21,582 bases of DNA from a bacterium (GTDB taxonomy: Bacteria; UBP14; UBA6098; 4484-93). Made by a program: the position numbers and the translations under genes. The DNA is taken from positions 1 to 21,582 of the forward strand of contig JAGGUN010000016.1 of assembly GCA_021158465.1 (NCBI GenBank). Direction: 5' to 3'. This document shows positions 4,112-17,874 of this stretch, piece by piece. How positions within the stretch are numbered: the stretch's first letter is position 1; each line of letters opens with the position of its first letter. The notes under the pieces were generated by a model, which worked only from the letters and a program-made list of their open reading frames with translations, made no database searches and was not told the origin of the DNA.

Positions 4112-4117
4112 AGGAGG
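4112..4117 (+). promoter_or_regulatory. Strong ribosome binding site of the giant gene
   Basis: A perfect AGGAGG precedes two adjacent in-frame ATGs at 4122 and 4125 (spacers of 4 and 7 nt). The 7-nt spacer favours the second ATG, giving a product one residue shorter that starts MRRFAW. Confidence 0.75.
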
Positions 4118-4121
4118 AGAA

Positions 4122-7100
4122 ATGATGAGAAGGTTCGCTTGGCTGACTTTGCTTATCTTTATTATCCTATTTTTATTTTGGAACATCTTTGCTGCGGATA
4201 GGCATATTGTTGAGATTGAGGCGGAGACTGCCCGCCCGATGCTTGTGAGGGACACGCTTAGCGGTTTTTTCGGACAGGTTAATGCTGTTGACCTGCCCTG
4301 TGTTTTTTTGAAGGGGGCGGATGAGCTTCCTGATGGGCTCGAGTGGACGCCTGCTGCGACAAGTACCGATGCTGTCCCCTGGGAAATAGGGCAGGAGAGA
4401 AGCTGCGTGAACCCACTGGATACTGCCTCCACTGAATCGGTGCTCTCACTCGAGTTCGATATAAGGAGTATACCCGAGGAAGCAAGGATTACCGATGTTG
4501 CATTGTTGCTGACGACTGTCGGATACTACACGAATACTGAGGACCCTGTTAAGCTCAAGATAAACGACCATATGGATTACAGACCATCGGTCACGGGTCC
4601 ACTCCGTAACTTCTGTGATGCGTACAACCTTGACATATACATATTTGGGCTCGTCTGTCCGGGTAACACCTACGATAGCGGAATACCTGTTCCAGAGGAT
4701 ACGATGCTTCACTCGATAAGGCTTGGTGATACAGCTGTTGCTGACCTGCAGGAGCAGTTGGATGATGGTTGGTTTGCTGTAGGTGTTGTTGCGGACCTTT
4801 TACCTGCTGGGCTTTTCGATTCTTTTGATACAACTATCATATACATCGATGCGCCTGCTGGCAAGCACAAACTCCGTGTTGAGTATGATTTACCTTGCAG
4901 CGTGCATGTACGAACAAGCTTCCCTGGTGGATACATATATTTTAACCACACAACCCACACATCTCCGTTCGACACGGCAGTCTATGCCTGGGATCCATGC
5001 ACACTCTCCACAGATTCTATCCAGTCGGTTGGAGATGACACAACGAGGTATCTTTTCACTGGTTGGAGCGATGGAGGAGCCTTGACACATATCGTCGAGC
5101 CGGAGACGGATACAACATTCATAGCCAACTTTGTCCTTCAGCATTATCTGACGCTGAATAATGGTGGCTATGGAACGGTCGATGGGGAAGGTTGGTATGA
5201 TGAAGGGGATACTGCTTATTTCTCTGTTTCACCGGACACAATAGAGGCTGGCGATACAAGGATTGTATTCGATGGCTGGACTGGTGCTGGTCCTGATTCG
5301 TATACAGGGGGAGCCAATCCTGCATGGGTAGTTATGAACCATCCCAACACCGAGACAGCAAACTGGAAGAGGATGTTCTACATAAGAACATCGTTCACTG
5401 GCTGTGGAACAGGGACGCCTGCTCAGTCGGGTGAGGGTTGGTATGATGAGGGTAGCAGTGCCCCGATTACGACGAGCGACACGGTTATTACTGGCTCCGG
5501 TATGTATCTCTTTTCGATGTGGACAGGCGGAACATTTGATGATGGGTTTTCGTCATCGACGGAGATATTAGTCGATACGGCGAGAACAGCTGTAGCGCAT
5601 TATGTGCCTGACATCGAGCTCTCTCCTCCTGATACGACAACAGGGGCAAACCTTGACACTCTGCTTGTTCCTGTGCTGTTCCAGGGTTCTGTTTCGTATC
5701 TCCTGGCGCATATCGGATTCGATCTCCATTTTGATACGAATTACCTGCAATACTTAGAGCTTCTTCCGCATCCTGATTTCTCCTGGGACAACCTGACAGG
5801 GACCGACATCTCCGCTGGCGATTCGGGGAGAGTGAGTATCGAGGCGGATGATGGAGATGGCTTTCTGGCAGAGGAAGGCGATACGCTGCTGTTTATTGCG
5901 TTTCAGGTTGCATACGATGCCCTTGGAGAGAGTTATATAACATTCTCCGATTTTCGGTTCGATGTCGAGGGTGCGACAACCACACCTGGAATATTCATTG
6001 TCGAGAGTGTGCCTGCTGTGGTCGAGTTCCACACCAGTTATGGATTTGGACCTCTTGTTATAGATGGCGATACTGTTATGAGCCCATTCATAGTCGAGTG
6101 GCTTACCGCCACGCCTTATACAATTGAAGCGCCCGAGTTGGCATATTGGGGTAGCATAAGGTATGTCTTTTCTCACTGGTCTGATGGTGGAGAGCGTGAG
6201 CATACCGTTTATGTCTTCGGGGATACGGCTTTTACGGCGTTCTATTCTGTGCAATATTATCTTGAGCTTGTCTCGGACTACGGGACAACGGATGGAGAAG
6301 GTTGGTATGATGAGGGAGCACCTGCTACATTCTCCGTTTCGCCAGAGACGGTGACGGTGGGTGATATAAGGAGAATATTTGTTCAGTGGGTAGGTGTTGG
6401 AGATGGCTCATACACGGGAGGAGATAATCCTGCCAGCTGCACGATGAATGCGCCTATTACCGAGACAGCAGAGTGGAGAACACAGTATTATCTTCATCTT
6501 GCATATACAGGCTGCGGGACGGCTGAGCCTGAGCAAACAGGCGAGGGCTGGTATGATGCTGGCGACTGGGCTGATATAACAACGGAGGAGGCAGTATCGG
6601 GCTACTATTTTAACTGGTGGATAGATGGAACATTCGTTGACCCGACACAGGCTGCAACGCAGGTTCTGGTCGATACAACGGTTACAGCAACAGCTGTTTA
6701 TGCAGATGAACCACCGTTTATTGAGCTTTCGCCTCCCGAAACGACACTTGCCCTCATTGGACTTCCTGTTGGTGTTCCGGCACTATTTTTTGCATCGAGC
6801 GAGTATCCTGTGGATTCGTTTGCGTTCACTGTCCGCTTCGACAACATAACAGTTCGTTTTGACAGCGTTGCGAACGGCTCAATCGAGTGGGACGAGCTTA
6901 TCTCCTATGACCTCTCATCAGGTTCTGCTGGCAGGGTGCTTATAGCCGGAGGTTCGATTCCACCTGAAACAGTTCCGCCTGCTTGCTCGCTTCTTGTTAT
7001 CTGGTTCACTGTCAGGTATACCGCCGATGATTCGTCCATTATCCATTTCTCCGATTTCTCGTATGACCTCGCTGCTGCAACCACAGAGGATGGTATGGTT

Positions 7101-10100
7101 CTTGTCAGAAGATGGCAGAATGTCAGGATACAGAACTCCTTTGGTGGCGGAGTGGTCTATCTGGATACTGTTATGCATTCATCGCCGTTTGACACGACAC
7201 TTCTTCTCTTCTCGAGCCACAGGATAGGGACAGATTCTATCCAGACGCTCCTGCCGGGAGTGAGATACTTATTTACCGGCTGGTCGGATGGCGGAGAGAT
7301 TTCCCATACGGTTGAGATAGCATCTGATACAGTCTTCACGGCGGCATTCGACACGACATACCGCCTTGTGGTGAGGAGTCCGTTCGGGACAACAGAGGGA
7401 AGTGGCTGGTATTCTCCCGGTGAGGAAATAGAGTTCTCCGTCTCACCCGACACGATAGAGACATCCGACACCAGGCACTATTTCACTGGCTGGCTGGGAG
7501 AGGGTGATGGCTCGTTCACCGGATACGAGAACCCTGCCAACTGCACGATGAACTCACCTATCCTCGAGGATGCAGAGTGGCAGACATACTATTACCTCAC
7601 TCTAACCTATTCTGGCTGCGGGGGAGCAGTCCCGACACAGACAGGAGAAGGTTGGTATGCCTCGGGTGTTCGGGCTAATATAACGACCGATGATATTGTG
7701 ATGGATGGCGACTCCACATATTATTTCAACTGCTGGATGGGCGGAGAGTTCACCGACCCGTACTCAAACGAGACGGATGTTCTTATGAGTTCGCCTGTGG
7801 TCGCCGAGGCAGTGTATTCAACATCGCCCGAACTGTTCCTCGTTATCCCGGAGGATACGAGCTTTGCCACGAGAGGAGAACCTGTTGCTATACCCGTTAT
7901 GCTCACTACCGATGAGCCACGGGAGATTGACTCTCTATTCCTCGTTGCTTGCTTCAATAATATTATGTTTGATTATCTTTCGCTTCTTCCGTATCTCCCC
8001 TGGGACACGCTTGCAGGTGTCGACATCTCCTCCTCTGATACAGGCAGGGTTGCCGTCTTTGCCAGAAGCGACACGGGCTTCACACTGACAGGAACCGATA
8101 CGCTGTTCTATCTTATCCTCTATACGGATGATATGGCGACAGGTCTATCACCGATTGCACTCCGTGGCTTCCGATTTGATATAGCCTCTGCCAGGACACG
8201 GGATGGTGTGATAGTGGTATCAACATCTACGGTGCATGTTACCATCAGGACAAGTTTCCCTGGAGGGAAGGTTAAGGTTGATGGGGTAGAACACGATTCC
8301 CCCTACAATGATACCTGGATAGTGAGAAGTGTGCATACAATAGGTGTTGATTCGGTCCAGGCGACCGGGGCAAGTATCAGGCATATCTTTATCAACTGGA
8401 ACGATGGAGGTGCTATTACTCATAGGGTTTCAACGACTGTGCCTACAGCATATGTGGCTTATTTTTCGACCCAGTTTTACTTAACGGTCGAAGCGGGTGG
8501 TCACGGGATGGCGGAAGGTGAGGGCTGGTATGATGTCGGTGATATTGCTACATTCTCTGTCTTGCCTGAGACGGTGGCGGTTGATGGAGTAAGGTATATC
8601 TTCGTTCGCTGGGAGGGGTTTGGCACAGGTTCATACGCAGGAGAGGACAATCCGGCAAACTGTGTGATGTATTCCCCTATTCTGGAGACGGCGGTCTGGA
8701 AGAGCCAGTATTATCTGACACTCGACTATACCGGCTGCGAGGCTGAGCCCGCTCAGTCGGGTGAGGGCTGGTATGATGCAGGAGCCTGGGCTGGTATCTA
8801 CACTGAACCTCTCGTCGAATCCGATTCTGAAAGGTCTGTCTTCGCCTTCTGGACAGGTGGAATATTCGAGGATACATCGGCAAATGCGACGAGGCTGCTT
8901 GTCGATACTGTGAGAACGGCAACAGCCCATTACTCGCACATTGAGGTCTCACCGCCTGCAGAGATGTTTGCCGAGTATGGGGAGATAGTTTCTGTGCCTG
9001 TTGTCCTGCGCACATCTGATTCTGTCCGTGTGGACAGCACAGGGCTTGTCTTCAACTTCGATGCCGACATTATGAATTATCTTTCGATATCCGACTGTGC
9101 CGGGATTGGCTGGAGTTTCCTGTTTGCCTATGACCTTTCATCCGGCTCATATGGTAGGGTAGCGGTAGCGGCTGGGTCAGCTTCTGGTGGTCTATGGCTC
9201 GGAGCTGTTGATACACTCTTTTGCCTCAATTTTGAGATTACTGCATCGTCAGGGTTCTCACCGATGCATATAAGCAATATATCTGGCGACCTCGAGGGTG
9301 CGGGAACAAGAGACGGGATACTGCATGTTTCCTATCCTGTGGATGTCAGCGTCATCTCATCCGCCGGGGATAGCATCTATTTCGATGGCTCGACGAGGCG
9401 CTCACCGTTCGATACAACGGTGCTTGCCGGTGAAACTCATACAATCGGAGCCGACTCGATCGTTTCAACTGGAACGCCTGGCGAGAGGTATCTTTTCTCT
9501 GGCTGGTCGGATGGTGGCGAGATGATCCACTCGGTGCGGATAGCGTCCGATACGGTGTTCCGGGCAGAATACGACCTTCAGTATTATCTTACGGTTGTGT
9601 CCGACTATGGGACAACAGACGGCGAGGGCTGGTATAACGATGGTGAAACTCCGACATTCTCCGTCTTACCTGATACGCTTGTATTTTCTGACACGATGCG
9701 TGTTATCTTCTCAGACTGGACAGGTGAGGGCGATGGCTCATACACAGGGAGCGATAACCCTGCTAACTGCGTGATGAACTCGCCGATAGTTGAGACAGCG
9801 AACTGGACAGTGCAGTATTACCTCGCTGTTCTGTCCGATTACGGTACAACGGAGGGTTCTGGCTGGTACGATGTTGGTGCGACTCCGACATTCTCCGTCT
9901 CGCCTGAGACACTCACATTTTCTGACACGATGCGTGTTATCTTTTCTGGCTGGACGGGTGAAGGTAGCCGCTCATACACAGGGAGCGATAATCCTGCAAG
10001 CTGTGTGATGAACTCGCCGATAGTTGAGACAGCGAACTGGACGAGACAGTATTATCTTACCGTATCCAACGGAGGCAGGGGAACGGTTCGTGGCGAAGGC

Positions 10101-13100
10101 TGGTATGATGAAGCTACCTGGGCGCATTTTGACATCTCGCCTGAGATCATCGATTCGACGAGGAACATAAGGTATCAGTTTACCGGCTGGTTAGGTGATG
10201 GTGATAGCTCATTCACGGGCTATGCCAACCCCTGCTCGGTTCGTGTATTCTCGCCGATAACGGAGACAGCTGTCTGGCAACTTCAGTTCTATCTCATTGT
10301 TAGCTCGTCTTATGGGACAACAGATGGAGAAGGGTATCATCCTGCTGGAAGTGTCGTTATGTTCTCTGTTTCGCCTGACACCATCGAGGATCTTGGGAAC
10401 AAGAGGCATATTTTCTCTGGCTGGGCAGGTGATGGCGATGGCTCGTATACAGGAGGGGATAATCCTGGATACTGCATAATGAACGAGCCGTTGTCCGAGA
10501 TTGCGAGCTGGGATACACAGTTCTACATCACGCTTGACTACGATAGCACCGGTCTTGCCGTTCCTGAGCAGGAGGGCGAAGGCTGGGTGAACAGGGATAG
10601 CTGGACTCCCATATACACCGAGCCTATCGTCTACGATGGCGAGCTGAGATACCGTTTTCTCCATTGGGTAGGTGGAGATTTCGAGGATGAGCATTCTTAC
10701 AGCACGACAGCTCTCGTCGATACGAGTCGCACATTCACTGCAGTATATACAGGGTACGAAGTTTCGCCGCCGGAAACGAGTTGGGTCCTGCCTGGGGATA
10801 CGGTGCTTGTTCCTGCAATGTTCTACAACACATCGGCAGCGCTTCTGACAAGCGTTGGGCTCGACTGCTTCTATCCGAGCGATATGTTCACCTTCCTCGA
10901 TCTTGTCCGTTCTGATACGCTCGACTGGGGAACACTCAATCACCTCGATATAGAGCCAGGGCATATCCGTGTGTTCGCCAGCAATTATCCACCGCTGTAT
11001 GTTATCCCGCCGGTGCCACTTTTCTATTTCAAGTTCGCAGTCTCCACCGATGCAACGGGAAGGGACACGATACATTTCGAGTCTTTGACATTCGATATAT
11101 CGTCTGCTGCTACATTCCCCGGTCTTGTTGGTGTGCTTGAGGCAAAGCATATCACTATAACCACATCCGATGAACTTGGGCAGGTTCAGGTCGATGGGGT
11201 CTGGTATGGTGTCCCTGCTACATTTGTCTGGGAGACCGGCTCATACCACAACATAGGAACGCAGGATTTCCATCCGGTGTCGGAGGGTGTTGTCGATTTC
11301 TTCACCGATTGGTCGGACGGTGGCGAACAGTATCACACGATTGTTGTCTCGGATAATGATACGCTCACTGCAAACTATGAGTCAAGGTATCTCCTTTCCG
11401 TTGAGACAGCTTATGGGACAGCTTCTGGTGGAGGGTATTATCCTGAGGGAACAGATGCTCTCTTTTCCGTTTCACCCGATACTGTCTGTGAGGAAGGGGT
11501 AAGGCATATCTTCCTCTCTTGGACAGGCACAGGTGACGGTTCATACACTGGGACAAACAACCCTGCCATTGCTGTGATGTATTCGCCCATCACCGAGACA
11601 GCGAACTGGCGAACCGACTACTACCTCACCGTTGTGTCCGATTATGGGGCAACGGAAGGTGCAGGCTGGTATGAGCAGGGGTCGTCTGTCGAATTCTCCG
11701 TCTTGCCAGATGTTGTAGATTCTACCGAGGTTATAAGGCACATATTTACAGGCTGGACAGGCACGGGTTACGGCTCCTACACGGGAGGTGCTAATCCTGC
11801 TGTGGCAACGATGAACTCTCCTATCATCGAGACGGCGAACTGGACAAGGCAGTATTATCTCGACATTGTAACCGGATATAGCTCGAGCGATGACGAGGGC
11901 TGGTATGACGCCGGAGATACAGTAGAGTTTGCGATAGATGGAACATCCGTCCCCATCTCTGACGGTGTCAGGGCGGTATTTGTCTCCTGGACGGGAGAGG
12001 GTATCGGCTCTTACACTGGCGATGGTAATCCTGCTACCTGTGTTATGCTTTCCCCTGTTGTTGAAACGGCGGCATGGACGGTTCGGTATCGTGTCGACAT
12101 AATCTCCGATTATGGAACACCGACGGGAGCTGGCTGGTATGCTGAGGGTGATGATGTTGTATTCTCTGTTTCCCCGGATACGGTCTCCTTCTCCGATACG
12201 AGGTTTGTCTTCACGGGCTGGATAGGGGAAGGTCTTGGCTCTTACACAGGTGATGACAACCCTGCAACCGTTGTTGTCGAGACCGAACCTATTGTCGAGA
12301 CAGCTCATTGGCAAAGGCAGTATCTGTTAACTGTTCTTTCTGACTATGGGACAACGGACGGCTCCGGATGGTATGATGAGGGTGTGGATGTTATCTTCTA
12401 TCTCTATCCTGAGGTTGTCGAGCTTGTTCCAGGCGAGATGAGGGCAGTATTCTCACGATGGGATGGGGAAGGTCTTGGCTCTTACACGGGCGAGGATAAT
12501 CCTGCATCCTGTTGTATGCTCTCACCAATAACGGAGGCTGCTAACTGGGATATCAGGTATTATCTTGCCGTATCGTCCGACTATGGCACAACCGCAGGCT
12601 CAGGATGGTATGATGAAGGAACTGTTGCCAGGTTTTCTGTTTCGCCTGATTCGATTAACTTCGACGATACGACCGTTGTTCTCTTCTCTTCCTGGACAGG
12701 AGCAGGGGATATTTCCTATTCAGGCTCTGATAATCCTGCGTATGCGACAATGAATTCGTATATAACCGAGGATGCGGACTGGCTCAATATTTACAGGGTA
12801 GAGCTTTCCTACTCTGGGTGTGGCTCGGCTGAGCCTTATCAATCGGGTGAAGGCTGGTACACTGCTGGCGACACAGCGGATATATTCTCCCAGCTGGTGG
12901 TCTACGACGGCTCGGTTCGCTACCACTTCGACCACTGGGTAGGTCTGCATCTTGTCGACCCGGATTCGAACGCAACCAGACTTGAGGTTCTTTCATATTC
13001 ACCTGTTGAGGCGGTTTATGACCCGTTTGAAGTATCGCCACAGGATACAATCTCCGGCGTTGCCGGTGGAAGCGTTGACATTCCTGTTATCCTATACAAT

Positions 13101-15587
13101 GATGAGCCTGTTTTGGTCGGTTCATTTGGTCTTGAGCTTCGGTTCAGCTCCTCCCATCTTATCTACAATCATCTTGTCAACAATCTCGGCTGGGAGACGC
13201 TCGATGGGACTGAAATCGGCTCTGGTGTGGTCTCAATCTCTGGTGGCTCCTCTACTCCTATCTCTGTCTCTGGTGGTGATACGCTATTCTATGTGAATAT
13301 GGACATTCATTCCACTGCCACAGGTTGCTGTGCTGTCTACTGCAGCAATCTCACAGGTGATATAGAGGGTGCCTGGAGCAGGCAGGGAATATTCTTCGTT
13401 ACCGAGGGTGTTAGTGTAACCGTTACCACATCGCTGGGGAGAGGTGTGGTTTATATTGACGGAGCACCGGAAGACGCACCTTACACGGCAAACTGGGCTT
13501 CTGGCTCGACCCACATCATCGGCACAGATTCGATCTTCAATGCGTCTGCTGGTGAGAGGTATCTTTTCTCCTGCTGGTCGGATGGAGGGACAAGGCAGCA
13601 TCCGGTGAGTGTCTTCTCCGATACGACATTCACAGCAGATTTTGCCCACCAGTTGCAGTTCACGGTCTATAACCCAGACGGCTGTGGTTCGCCAACCCCA
13701 CCTGTTGGGAGCTACTGGTACGACGATGGAACCGAGGTTTCAGCGTTTGTTGAGAGCCCTGACACTGCTCGTAGGATGTTCTGCACCGGATATTCTGGCA
13801 CAGGAAACCTTACGGGTGGTGGGGAGAGCGATTCGGTCCTGTTCGTTATTGATACCCCGACATCGATATGGTGGGAGTGGCAAAATATGCTATACCTCGA
13901 TGTCGAAAGCGACTATGACACTCCTGACCCATCTGCTGGCAGGCACTGGTATACCCCTGGAGTGGAGGTTACGGCTTCGTCCGACACAGCCGATGTTCTT
14001 ATCCCTGATAGTAAGAGGATGCATCTGGTTGGCTGGACAGGGACAGGCTCTGTTCCAGCGGATGGCGACTCAGAGATAGTTGTATTTAATCTACTTGAGA
14101 ATTCAAGCATAAGCTGGCAGTGGATAGATGAGTTCTACCTCGATTTCTATGCTACCGGTTGCCCCGGTGCAACACCATCTCTCACCGATGATGGCTGGTT
14201 CCCAACTGGTGCGCTTATCCCGATCGAGGCAGACAGCACAACATCCGATTCCGAGGGCAATGTCTTCTTCTTCAGTCATTGGGCATCCGTTCCCGAGGGG
14301 GCAATCTTTGTTGACACGACATCTCATATAACCACTGTTGTCGCCGACACATCGTATCACATAAATGCAGTGTATTCTCCCGGCGTAAGGGTCAGACTGC
14401 TTGCCAGCCCGGTAGCTGCTGCCTTTTCTGTCGATGGTGAGGAGTTCACATCAGCCGAGAGCCTCGATGTTTGGTTTGCCTACGGGACGGAGCATACAAT
14501 CGGTGTTGCGGATACAACATTCCTTGGGGACTCTGCCGGAGTGTTTGACCACTGGTCGGATGGCGGTGAGATATTTCATACGGTCGGTCCGCTGTATGAG
14601 GACACATCGTTTGTCGCATACCTTGACAAGCATTACAAGGTTATGGTTGAGAAGGAGCCTGAAGAGGATACTTACGGCTCTATAACGATAGATGACAGGA
14701 CATATTCTTCCGTGTCGTCTGTGTGTGAGTGGTGGCAGGATGGAACGGCGCATCATCTCTCCGTCTCAAGCCCGGATATGGTCGAAAGTGATGTAAGATA
14801 CCTGTTTGCCTCCTGGTCTGATGGCGGAGCACGAACACACACAACATCCCCTGTGTCCGAGCCTGACACATTCGTAGCGAACTATACACTGCAGAACAAA
14901 TGTAGCATCGAGAAGCAACCGAATGAACCTTACGGAACAATAACGGTCAACTCCACAGTTTATGAGGATGCATATTTCGTTGAGTTCTGGGTGGACAGCG
15001 GCTCAACCGCTACCATCGGCGTCTCATCACCAGATGCTAATATTGACACTGTCTGGACATTCGATAGCTGGTCGGATGGCGGTGATATTGTGCATACGAC
15101 AGGTGAAATCGAGCTACCGACTGGATTCGTTGCGTATTATGTGGAGTCTGTTGTCCCGATCGACATCTCCTTCAATACCACATCCTGGAGTGCTGGTTCT
15201 GGTGAGCCGGGTGCAACGATTACAATGAACTCGAGGGATGTTATTGTCCTGACAAACAACGGAGGAACGGCTATCGACCTTGGATTGTATGTCGATACGA
15301 CAGGTGCTATCTGGTTGCCTGGCTTTGTGAACGGTGAGGATACTTACATCCTTCGTGCCATATTCAACGAGTCTACAACGCCGCCAGTGCATTTTGAACC
15401 GGTAACCGATTGTGTCAGGGCGTCTCTTGCCTGGGCAACGGCGGATATATTCGGTCCCGAGGGGTTCGGTATAGCTCCGGATGGGTCCAACAATCTCTGG
15501 TTGCAGTTCGTTATGCCGACATATTCAAGCACAACAGAGGAACAGACAATCATCGTAAAGCTGAAGGCAAAGGTGCACCTGCCGTAG
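4122..15587 (+). CDS. Giant secreted InlB-like / cohesin-like repeat protein
   Basis: A 3821-residue protein. Residues 1-26 form a signal peptide (MMRR, a long hydrophobic stretch, FAA). Residues 27-258 form a unique domain, possibly a DNRLRE-like beta sandwich (weak). From 259 to about 3676 four module types alternate. A (about 81 residues) has SPFDTT, GWSDGG, HTV and DT-FTA. B (about 78) has YYLTVVSDYGTT, GEGWYDEG, FSVSP, SYTG-DNPA and ETANW. C (about 78) has TGCG-AEP, GEGWYDAG and ATAVY. D (about 130) has SPPETT, VPV, a central GTDISSGDSGRV-like turn and DTLFYLNF, and resembles cohesin domains. A, B and C resemble divergent InlB B-repeats. The order is A-B(n)-C-D six times with n = 1,1,1,1,4,6, then A, two B-like modules, C, three A-like modules, and a C-terminal domain (3677-3821, NNGG, NLWLQF). 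No transmembrane anchor, dockerin or T9SS sorting signal is visible at the C-terminus. Likely a cell-surface fibre or adhesin; a scaffoldin role is speculative. The gene is monocistronic as far as can be seen. Confidence 0.9.
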   Translation: MMRRFAWLTLLIFIILFLFWNIFAADRHIVEIEAETARPMLVRDTLSGFFGQVNAVDLPCVFLKGADELPDGLEWTPAATSTDAVPWEIGQERSCVNPLDTASTESVLSLEFDIRSIPEEARITDVALLLTTVGYYTNTEDPVKLKINDHMDYRPSVTGPLRNFCDAYNLDIYIFGLVCPGNTYDSGIPVPEDTMLHSIRLGDTAVADLQEQLDDGWFAVGVVADLLPAGLFDSFDTTIIYIDAPAGKHKLRVEYDLPCSVHVRTSFPGGYIYFNHTTHTSPFDTAVYAWDPCTLSTDSIQSVGDDTTRYLFTGWSDGGALTHIVEPETDTTFIANFVLQHYLTLNNGGYGTVDGEGWYDEGDTAYFSVSPDTIEAGDTRIVFDGWTGAGPDSYTGGANPAWVVMNHPNTETANWKRMFYIRTSFTGCGTGTPAQSGEGWYDEGSSAPITTSDTVITGSGMYLFSMWTGGTFDDGFSSSTEILVDTARTAVAHYVPDIELSPPDTTTGANLDTLLVPVLFQGSVSYLLAHIGFDLHFDTNYLQYLELLPHPDFSWDNLTGTDISAGDSGRVSIEADDGDGFLAEEGDTLLFIAFQVAYDALGESYITFSDFRFDVEGATTTPGIFIVESVPAVVEFHTSYGFGPLVIDGDTVMSPFIVEWLTATPYTIEAPELAYWGSIRYVFSHWSDGGEREHTVYVFGDTAFTAFYSVQYYLELVSDYGTTDGEGWYDEGAPATFSVSPETVTVGDIRRIFVQWVGVGDGSYTGGDNPASCTMNAPITETAEWRTQYYLHLAYTGCGTAEPEQTGEGWYDAGDWADITTEEAVSGYYFNWWIDGTFVDPTQAATQVLVDTTVTATAVYADEPPFIELSPPETTLALIGLPVGVPALFFASSEYPVDSFAFTVRFDNITVRFDSVANGSIEWDELISYDLSSGSAGRVLIAGGSIPPETVPPACSLLVIWFTVRYTADDSSIIHFSDFSYDLAAATTEDGMVLVRRWQNVRIQNSFGGGVVYLDTVMHSSPFDTTLLLFSSHRIGTDSIQTLLPGVRYLFTGWSDGGEISHTVEIASDTVFTAAFDTTYRLVVRSPFGTTEGSGWYSPGEEIEFSVSPDTIETSDTRHYFTGWLGEGDGSFTGYENPANCTMNSPILEDAEWQTYYYLTLTYSGCGGAVPTQTGEGWYASGVRANITTDDIVMDGDSTYYFNCWMGGEFTDPYSNETDVLMSSPVVAEAVYSTSPELFLVIPEDTSFATRGEPVAIPVMLTTDEPREIDSLFLVACFNNIMFDYLSLLPYLPWDTLAGVDISSSDTGRVAVFARSDTGFTLTGTDTLFYLILYTDDMATGLSPIALRGFRFDIASARTRDGVIVVSTSTVHVTIRTSFPGGKVKVDGVEHDSPYNDTWIVRSVHTIGVDSVQATGASIRHIFINWNDGGAITHRVSTTVPTAYVAYFSTQFYLTVEAGGHGMAEGEGWYDVGDIATFSVLPETVAVDGVRYIFVRWEGFGTGSYAGEDNPANCVMYSPILETAVWKSQYYLTLDYTGCEAEPAQSGEGWYDAGAWAGIYTEPLVESDSERSVFAFWTGGIFEDTSANATRLLVDTVRTATAHYSHIEVSPPAEMFAEYGEIVSVPVVLRTSDSVRVDSTGLVFNFDADIMNYLSISDCAGIGWSFLFAYDLSSGSYGRVAVAAGSASGGLWLGAVDTLFCLNFEITASSGFSPMHISNISGDLEGAGTRDGILHVSYPVDVSVISSAGDSIYFDGSTRRSPFDTTVLAGETHTIGADSIVSTGTPGERYLFSGWSDGGEMIHSVRIASDTVFRAEYDLQYYLTVVSDYGTTDGEGWYNDGETPTFSVLPDTLVFSDTMRVIFSDWTGEGDGSYTGSDNPANCVMNSPIVETANWTVQYYLAVLSDYGTTEGSGWYDVGATPTFSVSPETLTFSDTMRVIFSGWTGEGSRSYTGSDNPASCVMNSPIVETANWTRQYYLTVSNGGRGTVRGEGWYDEATWAHFDISPEIIDSTRNIRYQFTGWLGDGDSSFTGYANPCSVRVFSPITETAVWQLQFYLIVSSSYGTTDGEGYHPAGSVVMFSVSPDTIEDLGNKRHIFSGWAGDGDGSYTGGDNPGYCIMNEPLSEIASWDTQFYITLDYDSTGLAVPEQEGEGWVNRDSWTPIYTEPIVYDGELRYRFLHWVGGDFEDEHSYSTTALVDTSRTFTAVYTGYEVSPPETSWVLPGDTVLVPAMFYNTSAALLTSVGLDCFYPSDMFTFLDLVRSDTLDWGTLNHLDIEPGHIRVFASNYPPLYVIPPVPLFYFKFAVSTDATGRDTIHFESLTFDISSAATFPGLVGVLEAKHITITTSDELGQVQVDGVWYGVPATFVWETGSYHNIGTQDFHPVSEGVVDFFTDWSDGGEQYHTIVVSDNDTLTANYESRYLLSVETAYGTASGGGYYPEGTDALFSVSPDTVCEEGVRHIFLSWTGTGDGSYTGTNNPAIAVMYSPITETANWRTDYYLTVVSDYGATEGAGWYEQGSSVEFSVLPDVVDSTEVIRHIFTGWTGTGYGSYTGGANPAVATMNSPIIETANWTRQYYLDIVTGYSSSDDEGWYDAGDTVEFAIDGTSVPISDGVRAVFVSWTGEGIGSYTGDGNPATCVMLSPVVETAAWTVRYRVDIISDYGTPTGAGWYAEGDDVVFSVSPDTVSFSDTRFVFTGWIGEGLGSYTGDDNPATVVVETEPIVETAHWQRQYLLTVLSDYGTTDGSGWYDEGVDVIFYLYPEVVELVPGEMRAVFSRWDGEGLGSYTGEDNPASCCMLSPITEAANWDIRYYLAVSSDYGTTAGSGWYDEGTVARFSVSPDSINFDDTTVVLFSSWTGAGDISYSGSDNPAYATMNSYITEDADWLNIYRVELSYSGCGSAEPYQSGEGWYTAGDTADIFSQLVVYDGSVRYHFDHWVGLHLVDPDSNATRLEVLSYSPVEAVYDPFEVSPQDTISGVAGGSVDIPVILYNDEPVLVGSFGLELRFSSSHLIYNHLVNNLGWETLDGTEIGSGVVSISGGSSTPISVSGGDTLFYVNMDIHSTATGCCAVYCSNLTGDIEGAWSRQGIFFVTEGVSVTVTTSLGRGVVYIDGAPEDAPYTANWASGSTHIIGTDSIFNASAGERYLFSCWSDGGTRQHPVSVFSDTTFTADFAHQLQFTVYNPDGCGSPTPPVGSYWYDDGTEVSAFVESPDTARRMFCTGYSGTGNLTGGGESDSVLFVIDTPTSIWWEWQNMLYLDVESDYDTPDPSAGRHWYTPGVEVTASSDTADVLIPDSKRMHLVGWTGTGSVPADGDSEIVVFNLLENSSISWQWIDEFYLDFYATGCPGATPSLTDDGWFPTGALIPIEADSTTSDSEGNVFFFSHWASVPEGAIFVDTTSHITTVVADTSYHINAVYSPGVRVRLLASPVAAAFSVDGEEFTSAESLDVWFAYGTEHTIGVADTTFLGDSAGVFDHWSDGGEIFHTVGPLYEDTSFVAYLDKHYKVMVEKEPEEDTYGSITIDDRTYSSVSSVCEWWQDGTAHHLSVSSPDMVESDVRYLFASWSDGGARTHTTSPVSEPDTFVANYTLQNKCSIEKQPNEPYGTITVNSTVYEDAYFVEFWVDSGSTATIGVSSPDANIDTVWTFDSWSDGGDIVHTTGEIELPTGFVAYYVESVVPIDISFNTTSWSAGSGEPGATITMNSRDVIVLTNNGGTAIDLGLYVDTTGAIWLPGFVNGEDTYILRAIFNESTTPPVHFEPVTDCVRASLAWATADIFGPEGFGIAPDGSNNLWLQFVMPTYSSTTEEQTIIVKLKAKVHLP
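9582..10520 (+). repeat. Four tandem B modules in super-repeat 5
   Basis: B modules begin at 9582, 9816, 10050 and 10287 (periods 234, 234 and 237 bp). The first two share long stretches of identical DNA around GACACGATGCGTGTTATCTT and AACTCGCCGATAGTTGAGAC, so they come from a recent in-frame duplication. The third and fourth are older and more diverged. Confidence 0.85.
11388..12791 (+). repeat. Six tandem B modules in super-repeat 6
   Basis: B modules begin at 11388, 11619, 11853, 12087, 12321 and 12558 (periods 231-237 bp). All keep the GWY/GYY, SYTG/SYSG and final ETA-W/EDADW landmarks. They are more diverged from each other than the first two copies of super-repeat 5. Confidence 0.85.
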
Positions 15588-15946
15588 GTCTGCAGCAGGT
15601 TGATATGGAGATTTGAGCGAACCACACCTTTGATTGATGCTTTGGAAGGATGAAGAAGTTGCTTTCTCTACCGGGATTTAAGCGGGTTCGCCAGGGAGGC
15701 TCCAACCTGTTGAGTGACATTCCTTTTCCCTGAATCCTCTTTTTACAGATGGATTGAATAGGTCCCCACAGATGAGGAATGCGAATGTTCCAAAAGGAAG
15801 GTTATGGCTCGGGTCATCGTTATTGACCAGCCCCGTCAGGGCAACCTCAGGGAAAAGCACAATATCCAGCTTCTTTCAGCAAAACCTCTATACCGGACAC
15901 AATGGCAGATAACCTTCTCGGACTTTGCAGGTTATCAAAGTAGGGT
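15588..15946. other. Region between the giant gene and the tRNA
   Basis: This 359-bp stretch has no intact gene. Its right three quarters hold a decayed nitrilase-family gene on the minus strand (listed separately). The remaining 90 bp after the giant gene's TAG show no clear terminator hairpin, promoter or further coding signal. Confidence 0.6.
15678..15945 (-). pseudogene. Decayed carbon-nitrogen hydrolase (nitrilase superfamily) gene
   Basis: Read on the minus strand, one frame gives DNLQSPRRLSAIV.GIEVLLKEA, like the helix that precedes the first catalytic motif of nitrilases. A one-base shift then gives KLDIVLFPEVALTGL-NNDDPSHNLPFG, matching the family's catalytic-Glu region (PE.ALTG, NDDP.H.LP.G). 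This runs directly into TFAFLICGDLFNP, which matches the catalytic-Cys region (LICGDLF). The roughly 60-100 residues that normally lie between these motifs, including the catalytic Lys, are missing, and no family match follows. So there is one frameshift, an internal deletion and loss of both ends. The N-terminus would run into the tRNA gene. Family assignment by motif recall; pseudogene status is well supported. Confidence 0.7.
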
Positions 15947-16022
15947 TGGTAGCGGGGGAAGGATTCGAACCTTCGACCTTTGGGTTATGAGCCCAACGAG
16001 CTTCCAACTGCTCCACCCCGCA
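15947..16022 (-). tRNA. Initiator tRNA-fMet (CAT)
   Basis: Folds as a 76-nt cloverleaf with encoded CCA. The anticodon loop is CTCATAA (anticodon CAT). Initiator hallmarks: position 1 T faces position 72 T (no Watson-Crick pair); the anticodon stem ends in three G-C pairs (GGG/CCC); the D stem has the A11-T24 pair. Other acceptor pairs GCGGGG/CCCCGC are perfect, and the T arm is GAAGG-TTCGAAT-CCTTC. It stands alone with its own promoter. Confidence 0.95.
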
Positions 16023-16032
16023 TTGTGCTATT

Positions 16033-16060
16033 AATATACAAATATCTTGCAGCTTGTCAA
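16033..16060 (-). promoter_or_regulatory. Promoter of the initiator tRNA
   Basis: On the minus strand a perfect TTGACA (16060-16055) and TATATT (16038-16033) are 16 nt apart. They sit between the lamin-tail gene's stop and the tRNA. The -10 box ends 10 nt before the mature 5' end, implying a leader of only a few nt. Confidence 0.75.
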
Positions 16061-16063
16061 GTA

Positions 16064-17680
16064 TTATTTCAGGAACAGTATCTTTGCCGATGTGGCTCTC
16101 TTGCCGTTATCTATCCTGACGATGTATATCCCTGTTGGGACAGATTCTCCATTGAAATTGCAGCCGTCCCAGACTGACTGTCCGTCCTCTATTTTGATCG
16201 ATTGAACCATCTCACCCCGCAGGTTGTAAATCAATAACTTGCCTGCTTCGACGCTGGTATTTATCCTGATGCTGCTGTTGAACGGGTTCGGATACGCCCG
16301 CAGTTCAATTTTCTTTGACAGGATAATTTCCTCATCTATTCCCACAGAATTGGTTGTCCCGGGGGTGCCGTAGTCTATTTCGCTTGCCCTCCAGTTTGCG
16401 GGGTCGTTGTTATCGGATGATGGGTCGATGAGTTCGAGCGATGGTCCACCTCCGTTTGCTTCCTCCGGCCAGGGAGAGGTAGGTAGGTACGCTACGAGGT
16501 CGATGAGGTTCTCTTCCGGGTCGAATATCCTGACCCAATCACCGCCTGAGTTGTTCAGCCCGAATGCGAAATTTCCGATGACATTCGTTATCCCGAATCG
16601 AGCAGTAACAGCCGCTGTATCCTTGCAGACAACGATGAAACTATGCGGGGGTATTATCGTTCCCTCTGGAAAGACGAACTGGTGGCTATCATCGTTATCC
16701 TTCATCGTATATCCGGATATGTCAATGGGGGAATCCGTTCTGTTAAGGAGTTCTACCCATTCGGTGTCAGCGCCGATGGAGTTGTACATTATCTCGTTTA
16801 TCACCACATCGCTCACAGTTGGAATGGGGCTTCGAACGATAAATGAGTAAAAATCGGTTGTATCCTCCTGGGAGTGATTATCTGTTCCGATTATCCGGAA
16901 GTATACGGTGTCTCCGAGCATATATGGTGGTATTCTCCCTCCGTAGAGATAGTCTCCTGCCTCGCCATCGCCGTGTGCTCCATCATCGAGCATCTCGGTT
17001 GCCGAAAGCGAGGTTGTGTCTGTGCCATGGTATAGGATCACAGATGCCACAAGCGAGTCATCGGTTACGGTTGCTGTAACCAGCACCTCATCGTCCGTGG
17101 TAACATATGTGGGGGAATAGGTAACATCGCTTATAACGGGTGGTAGGTCGCCTGCCGAACCGTGAATACTGTTCTCTGCTCCGGGTGTTCCGCCATCGAC
17201 CGTGCTTGAGTTCCAGTTTTCAGGCGAGTTCGATGGTGCGGCTGGGTCGATCCTCTCAAGTGACGGACCATCACCATCGTGCGCACCATCCCCCCAGCTG
17301 TCGTGATATTTTACCGAGTCGATTGTAACACTGCCCTCCTTTAGAACAACCTCGTCGCTGGTATTGCTCAGCTGAATTCCGTGTCCTGTTGCGTCCACAT
17401 CCGGGGTGAACGGAAAAGAACCGCCGGTGAGGACCTCTATCGTCAGATAGCCGCCGGCAGGAACGGTCACGCCTTCAAATGTGTATGTCCCTTCATTGTC
17501 GGTTAGTATCCAATCTGCGTCCAATATGATATCCGAGTCGGTCGTGTTGTAAAGTTCGACCCATTCCTCGTCACTGCCGATGGAGTTATACATAATCTCG
17601 TTCACGACGATATCCCCCGGCGATGCAGCGAACAGCATCGCTGGCAGAAGGAACAAAGTTGCCATAGCTATGTTTCTCAT
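16064..17680 (-). CDS. Secreted protein with two lamin-tail domains and T9SS-type sorting domain
   Basis: A 538-residue protein. Residues 1-20 are a signal peptide (MRNIAMATLFLLPAMLFAA). Lamin-tail domain 1 spans about 22-172 and domain 2 about 290-446. Both open with VVNEIMYNSIG-D-EWVEL or a close variant and end in GTPG, so they arose by internal duplication. An Ig-like segment (about 181-283, DDGAHGDGEAGDYLYG) lies between. Residues 455-538 (RAYPNPFNSS, LLIYNLRGEMV, WDG, VPTGIYIVRI, KILFLK) match type-A Por/T9SS sorting or FlgD-Ig-like tails. This suggests export through a type IX-like system and surface attachment. Start ATG 17680-17678 is chosen because AGGAGG lies just upstream and the signal peptide begins there; an upstream in-frame extension of 26 codons lacks these features. 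Ligand or substrate unknown. Confidence 0.88.
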   Translation of the reverse strand: MRNIAMATLFLLPAMLFAASPGDIVVNEIMYNSIGSDEEWVELYNTTDSDIILDADWILTDNEGTYTFEGVTVPAGGYLTIEVLTGGSFPFTPDVDATGHGIQLSNTSDEVVLKEGSVTIDSVKYHDSWGDGAHDGDGPSLERIDPAAPSNSPENWNSSTVDGGTPGAENSIHGSAGDLPPVISDVTYSPTYVTTDDEVLVTATVTDDSLVASVILYHGTDTTSLSATEMLDDGAHGDGEAGDYLYGGRIPPYMLGDTVYFRIIGTDNHSQEDTTDFYSFIVRSPIPTVSDVVINEIMYNSIGADTEWVELLNRTDSPIDISGYTMKDNDDSHQFVFPEGTIIPPHSFIVVCKDTAAVTARFGITNVIGNFAFGLNNSGGDWVRIFDPEENLIDLVAYLPTSPWPEEANGGGPSLELIDPSSDNNDPANWRASEIDYGTPGTTNSVGIDEEIILSKKIELRAYPNPFNSSIRINTSVEAGKLLIYNLRGEMVQSIKIEDGQSVWDGCNFNGESVPTGIYIVRIDNGKRATSAKILFLK

Positions 17681-17704
17681 AACCCCTCCTTGTTTTGTAT
17701 GATA

Positions 17705-17732
17705 ATTATAAATCTCCAGAACGGTTTTGCAA
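17705..17732 (-). promoter_or_regulatory. Predicted promoter of the lamin-tail gene
   Basis: On the minus strand TTGCAA (17732-17727) and a consensus TATAAT (17710-17705) are separated by 16 nt, 24 nt before the start codon. Confidence 0.6.
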
Positions 17733-17874
17733 GAGGAAAAATGAGAAACTGTTTGCAAAATGGTAAAATCTGTTTTAGCAAAAATTATACAGACTTGATT
17801 ACTGGGGATTAGTGTTCAGGATTACCCTAATAGCCAACATTTCTGTTTGTCAGAATATTTCTTGCTAACTGTGC

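Follow-up and report, generated by a model that had tools for sequence, protein, structure and literature searches.

Repetitive surface proteins usually change length fast. Among those described, the fibrillar adhesins follow a plan in which a stalk is combined with an N-terminal domain that lacks annotation (PMC9210967). Both bacteria and archaea include cases of cohesins with no evident cellulosome (PMC9012536), and in the cellulosomal scaffoldin CipA the residues Asn37 and Asp39 touch the Ser/Thr motif of the dockerin (PMC5772552). The window analysed here is a stretch of 21,582 nucleotides, and a reading of it placed one open reading frame of 3,821 amino acids at 4122-15587 on the plus strand. 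An earlier note had described the product as a scaffoldin-like giant protein, in which cohesin-like D domains alternate with InlB-like A, B and C modules behind a signal peptide.

The four module classes were defined by aligning the repeats, and the module string was then derived by iterated profile searches. This string reads [A-B-C-D]x4, A-B4-C-D, A-B6-C-D, A-B-B-C, A-A-A, a total of 39 modules (10 A, 16 B, 7 C and 6 D), in which the number of B modules by D-bearing unit is 1, 1, 1, 1, 4 and 6. It is preceded by a signal-like N-terminus and an N-domain of about 235 amino acids, and followed by a C-terminal domain (X) of about 143 amino acids. The features, with their basis in brackets, are as follows.

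4112 to 4117, plus strand: Shine-Dalgarno-like AGGAGG before the start codon (sequence)
4122 to 4196, plus strand: signal-peptide-like N-terminus, residues 1-25 (basic start followed by a long hydrophobic run, with small residues last)
4197 to 4895, plus strand: N-terminal domain of about 235 amino acids, found only in this giant (profile searches)
4896 to 6032, plus strand: unit 1, A-B-C-D, with D1 at 5607-6032 (module profiles)
6015 to 7136, plus strand: unit 2, A-B-C-D, with D2 at 6714-7136 (module profiles)
7116 to 8252, plus strand: unit 3, A-B-C-D, with D3 at 7830-8252 (module profiles)
8232 to 9359, plus strand: unit 4, A-B-C-D, with D4 at 8934-9359 (module profiles, structure model)
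9339 to 11165, plus strand: unit 5, A-B-B-B-B-C-D, with D5 at 10749-11165 (module profiles)
11145 to 13430, plus strand: unit 6, A-B-B-B-B-B-B-C-D, with D6 at 13020-13430 (module profiles)
13410 to 14390, plus strand: D-less block A-B-B-C (module profiles)
14385 to 15155, plus strand: A-A-A, part of the C-A-A-A-X ending (module profiles, other giants)
15156 to 15584, plus strand: domain X, the last 143 or so amino acids of the protein, a candidate for anchoring or sorting (profile searches)

The six D modules and the fixed order A-B(n)-C-D were thus present as first described, and the N-terminus does look like a signal peptide. The first five A modules begin at residues 259, 632, 999, 1371 and 1740; the resulting spacings of 1119, 1101, 1116 and 1107 bp agree with the figure of about 1110 bp given before for four units. 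The first D module, previously placed at residues 498-629, was recovered here at 496-637. The earlier layout was correct for the A-B(n)-C-D units but incomplete, as it had overlooked the D-less A-B-B-C block, the three extra A modules and the N- and C-terminal domains. Elsewhere in the window, positions 3-644 encode a leucine-rich repeat protein that is cut by the contig end and holds a 135-bp tandem repeat. A protein with two lamin-tail domains and a type IX-like C-terminal sorting domain (16064-17758) adjoins the giant on the opposite strand.

The D module is a cohesin by both sequence profile and predicted fold. When a profile of 48 D modules was compared with the PDB, the best E-value was 3e-5 and 20 of the 21 matches were cohesins, the exception (7urp) being the weakest, with an E-value of 0.08. 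An AlphaFold2 model of unit 4 reached a mean pLDDT of 95.6, and its top Foldseek matches were cohesins. With VIA-align, for which only the D part of this model was taken in, cohesins filled 49 of 50 rows (best Z 15.0, rmsd 2.2, 128 residues aligned). The cohesin-like character first assigned to these modules is therefore borne out in the PDB profile comparison and in the predicted fold. Single D modules mostly fell under the cut-off of the Pfam Cohesin domain (PF00963), and no match to the whole giant was obtained in NCBIfam. The D modules were also the least conserved class, with a mean identity of 0.24-0.31 versus 0.30-0.52 for A, B and C.

The B modules resemble the divergent InlB B-repeat (PF18998) in sequence. 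Fifteen of 27 B modules matched this profile (best 1.9e-5), a weak similarity, and the first B member, at 21.4 bits, fell short of the cut-off of 23.6 bits. No credible match to the A and B modules was found among PDB sequences. The InlB-like label thus applies weakly to B, by the PF18998 profile.

Neither the N-domain nor domain X had a credible relative among Pfam and PDB profiles, and the structure model of X was poor (pLDDT 57.8; the fold search was not based on it). The C-A-A-A-X ending is common to other giants of the window's genome, on contigs C10 (2,260 and 2,660 amino acids), C54 and C4. X forms the C-terminus of five giants, of a papain-type protease and of small secreted-looking proteins; all 17 phylum genomes contained it, and it was C-terminal wherever examined. 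Since proteins of many kinds end in X, it is regarded as a candidate anchoring or sorting domain, which would retain proteins at the surface, and it may be the hallmark of a set of exported proteins in this uncultured phylum. At L088, L089 and L097-L104, X ends small proteins (open frames of 234-327 amino acids) and a papain-type protease that also has PKD and Ig domains; it may be a sorting or anchoring domain of the phylum that has so far escaped recognition.

The two giants on C10 are adjoining paralogues (L048:1797-8576 and 8670-16649) with the layouts A-C-B10-C-A-A-A-X and A-B-C-B12-C-A-A-A-X, and layouts and lengths of this type, identical or nearly so, were seen in G004, G007, G002, G008 and G010. 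Two pieces of the window's genome, C6 (L049), which ends in B repeats, and C4 (L051), which starts B5-C-A-A-A-X, are probably one giant gene split by contig ends. A second giant of 3,643 amino acids without D modules was encoded on L060 (Zod_Metabat.733), with the layout B7-C-B16-C-A-B8-C-A-A-A.

Large open reading frames with the same units were found in relatives from separate assemblies, which represent three further families within one candidate class. The scan of named genomes for relatives, with UBP14/UBA6098 among those named, assigned them to a candidate phylum; it used a single peptide pattern, and says little about occurrence outside the phylum. Complete copies measured 3,722-3,838 amino acids, and the identical 39-module string was shared by the window and five complete orthologues (G005, G009, G004, G007 and G010), so that the A-B-C-D order noted at first recurs in related genomes with the same number of modules. 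The strings of G008 and G015 each fell short by a single unscored, degenerate B in the last block, for which the space is kept, and the copies cut by contig ends (G002, G016, G014, G013 and G011) agreed as far as they were present. The orthologues had 32-41% identity to the window, with a largest internal gap of at most 32 amino acids. The N-domain was detected at high score in 13 of the 17 phylum genomes, and the giant was counted as present in those 13; the N-domain was absent from G003, G006, G012 (family f3), and from G001 (80% complete).

A chance origin of the layout was ruled out, as the same 39 modules are ordered alike in the orthologues. An assembly artefact from misjoined repeats, which the earlier note had considered, was likewise ruled out by the agreement of separate assemblies on the string. 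The D tree required 9 changes for the slot labels, compared with a minimum of 5 and a shuffled mean of 44.5, and the A, B and C trees also grouped by slot, B least clearly. As the modules cluster mainly by slot, the layout most likely goes back to an ancestor shared by these families, in which the six slots would already have been present, with separate divergence since. Best-hit scores had hinted at concerted evolution of the modules, but the trees speak against it, and these scores more likely reflect unequal rates.

We consider that the giant is probably exported and makes up a long, thin fibre on the cell surface, fixed in length and with its base at the C-terminus (rough probability 0.6). 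The extracellular fibre proposed earlier is thus a reasonable reading, in which fibre geometry, anchoring and binding are presumed. Export would proceed by the Sec pathway, as the N-terminus suggests, and the C-terminal A-A-A-X cassette would retain the protein at the outer surface. The stalk would then consist of the 33 small A, B and C modules, for which a beta fold is predicted from one modelled unit, with the six cohesin-like D modules set at intervals along its side. The N-domain might be held at the far end, or tip, and X at the base, an arrangement that we regard as the simplest reading. The D modules would be non-cellulosomal, slot-specific side modules, which probably contact something other than a classical dockerin or else act as structural spacers. 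At an assumed length of about 4 nm for each of the 39 modules, the reach is estimated at about 150 nm. Each of the 9 high-quality genomes contained the type IX secretion translocon SprA, and export of large proteins across the outer membrane is therefore plausible; the presence of SprA alone does not show that the giant is its cargo. No match was found for GldM, which belongs to the motor of this system, in a weak test in which no control genome expected to carry it matched clearly.

A true scaffoldin, with D modules that dock dockerin-bearing enzymes as in a cellulosome, would account for the spacing of six cohesin-fold modules along a single protein that looks secreted, and for the further cohesin-bearing proteins in the same genome. 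Nevertheless, the own genome yielded no match to Dockerin_1 (PF00404), which highly divergent dockerins could escape, and no hit in a search for a tandem DxNxDG pattern; across the 17 phylum genomes no Dockerin_1 match rose above the cut-off, the one weak sub-threshold match being in G004. No known carbohydrate-binding module was recognised, a marginal cohesin being the only Pfam family match to the whole protein, and the positions of Asn37 and Asp39 are occupied by H/S and G/A/F in all six D modules. With no dockerin over threshold and the type I contact residues absent, a scaffoldin role is very unlikely; in its functional sense the original description found no support, and the name is withheld here, D being a cohesin by fold and sequence. 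An adhesin for motility or cell polarity, moved along the surface like SprB of gliding bacteria, was also considered. Three genomes of a single genus carry the giant immediately upstream of, and on the same strand as, a cluster that encodes an uncharacterised membrane-type protein, a GTPase of the Arf/Ras-like (MglA-like) type and a roadblock protein resembling MglB, and SprA is present. However, in the window's genome the cluster is at a different place (C41), its copy in G008 (family f3) does not adjoin the giant, and GldM was not found, which leaves this role improbable. The conserved cluster was located at L136:7707-12438, L137:2-4471 and L146:8253-11351. An apparent link in G013 was rejected, as a different X-tailed protein, and not this giant, lies at the cluster there. 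The gene neighbours of the giant differ between families and indicate no operon partner.

Length and order are conserved across the orthologues, and selection for a set reach may be the cause. The conserved length could also be neutral, as the repeats are too diverged in DNA to recombine: the layout would have arisen once and been frozen, with the D modules as spacers without ligands. The median B-B DNA identity is indeed low (0.57 in the window, 0.50-0.57 overall), repeat-number change peaks where repeat identity is highest (PMC8201768), and D is the least conserved class. Against this, no gain or loss of a whole module was seen in any complete copy over this divergence. In addition, the B5/B6 pair of the window has 81% DNA identity, whereas B pairs in the other complete copies do not exceed 0.66. 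This suggests that exchange between repeats occurs without a change in count, which leans towards selection on length, albeit from a single case. We therefore regard neutral freezing as possible but unlikely. A stronger version of the fibre model, a ruler-like surface tether in which strong selection throughout the phylum would act on the exact length and module order and which offers six position-specific sites for a new class of non-dockerin ligand, is quite doubtful; if true, it would be a bacterial counterpart of a ruler protein. As every module is kept down to about one third identity, the giant lends itself to testing for selection on reach or order, and its cohesin array, in organisms where no dockerins could be recognised, poses a direct question about the ligands of non-cellulosomal cohesins.

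The giant resembles fibrillar adhesins (PMC9210967) in being secreted-looking, with a long stalk of repeated beta modules and an unannotated N-terminal domain, but no adhesive or anchor domain of a known family was recognised in it, and its stalk is broken at regular intervals by cohesin-like modules in a fixed architecture. Periscope proteins (PMC8201768) likewise have tandem folded domains and an expected surface rod; their repeats are near-identical and vary in number by strain, whereas those of the giant are diverged and equal in number across families. Several cohesin-fold modules per protein are shared with the cellulosomal scaffoldins CipA and ScaB. In contrast to these, no dockerins, known carbohydrate-binding module or type I contacts were found for the giant, and its cohesins are set apart by the A/B/C stalk. 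The cohesins of A. fulgidus (2xdh) and C. perfringens (2jh2) also show the cohesin fold outside cellulosomes. The scaffoldin-like proteins of ANME carry up to five cohesins each, but ANME encode dockerins, the layouts vary between relatives and an A/B/C stalk is not described there (PMC9012536). The parts of the giant are of known kinds, and what appears to be new is that cohesins are set into the stalk at regular intervals, that this layout does not vary between families and that dockerins are lacking.
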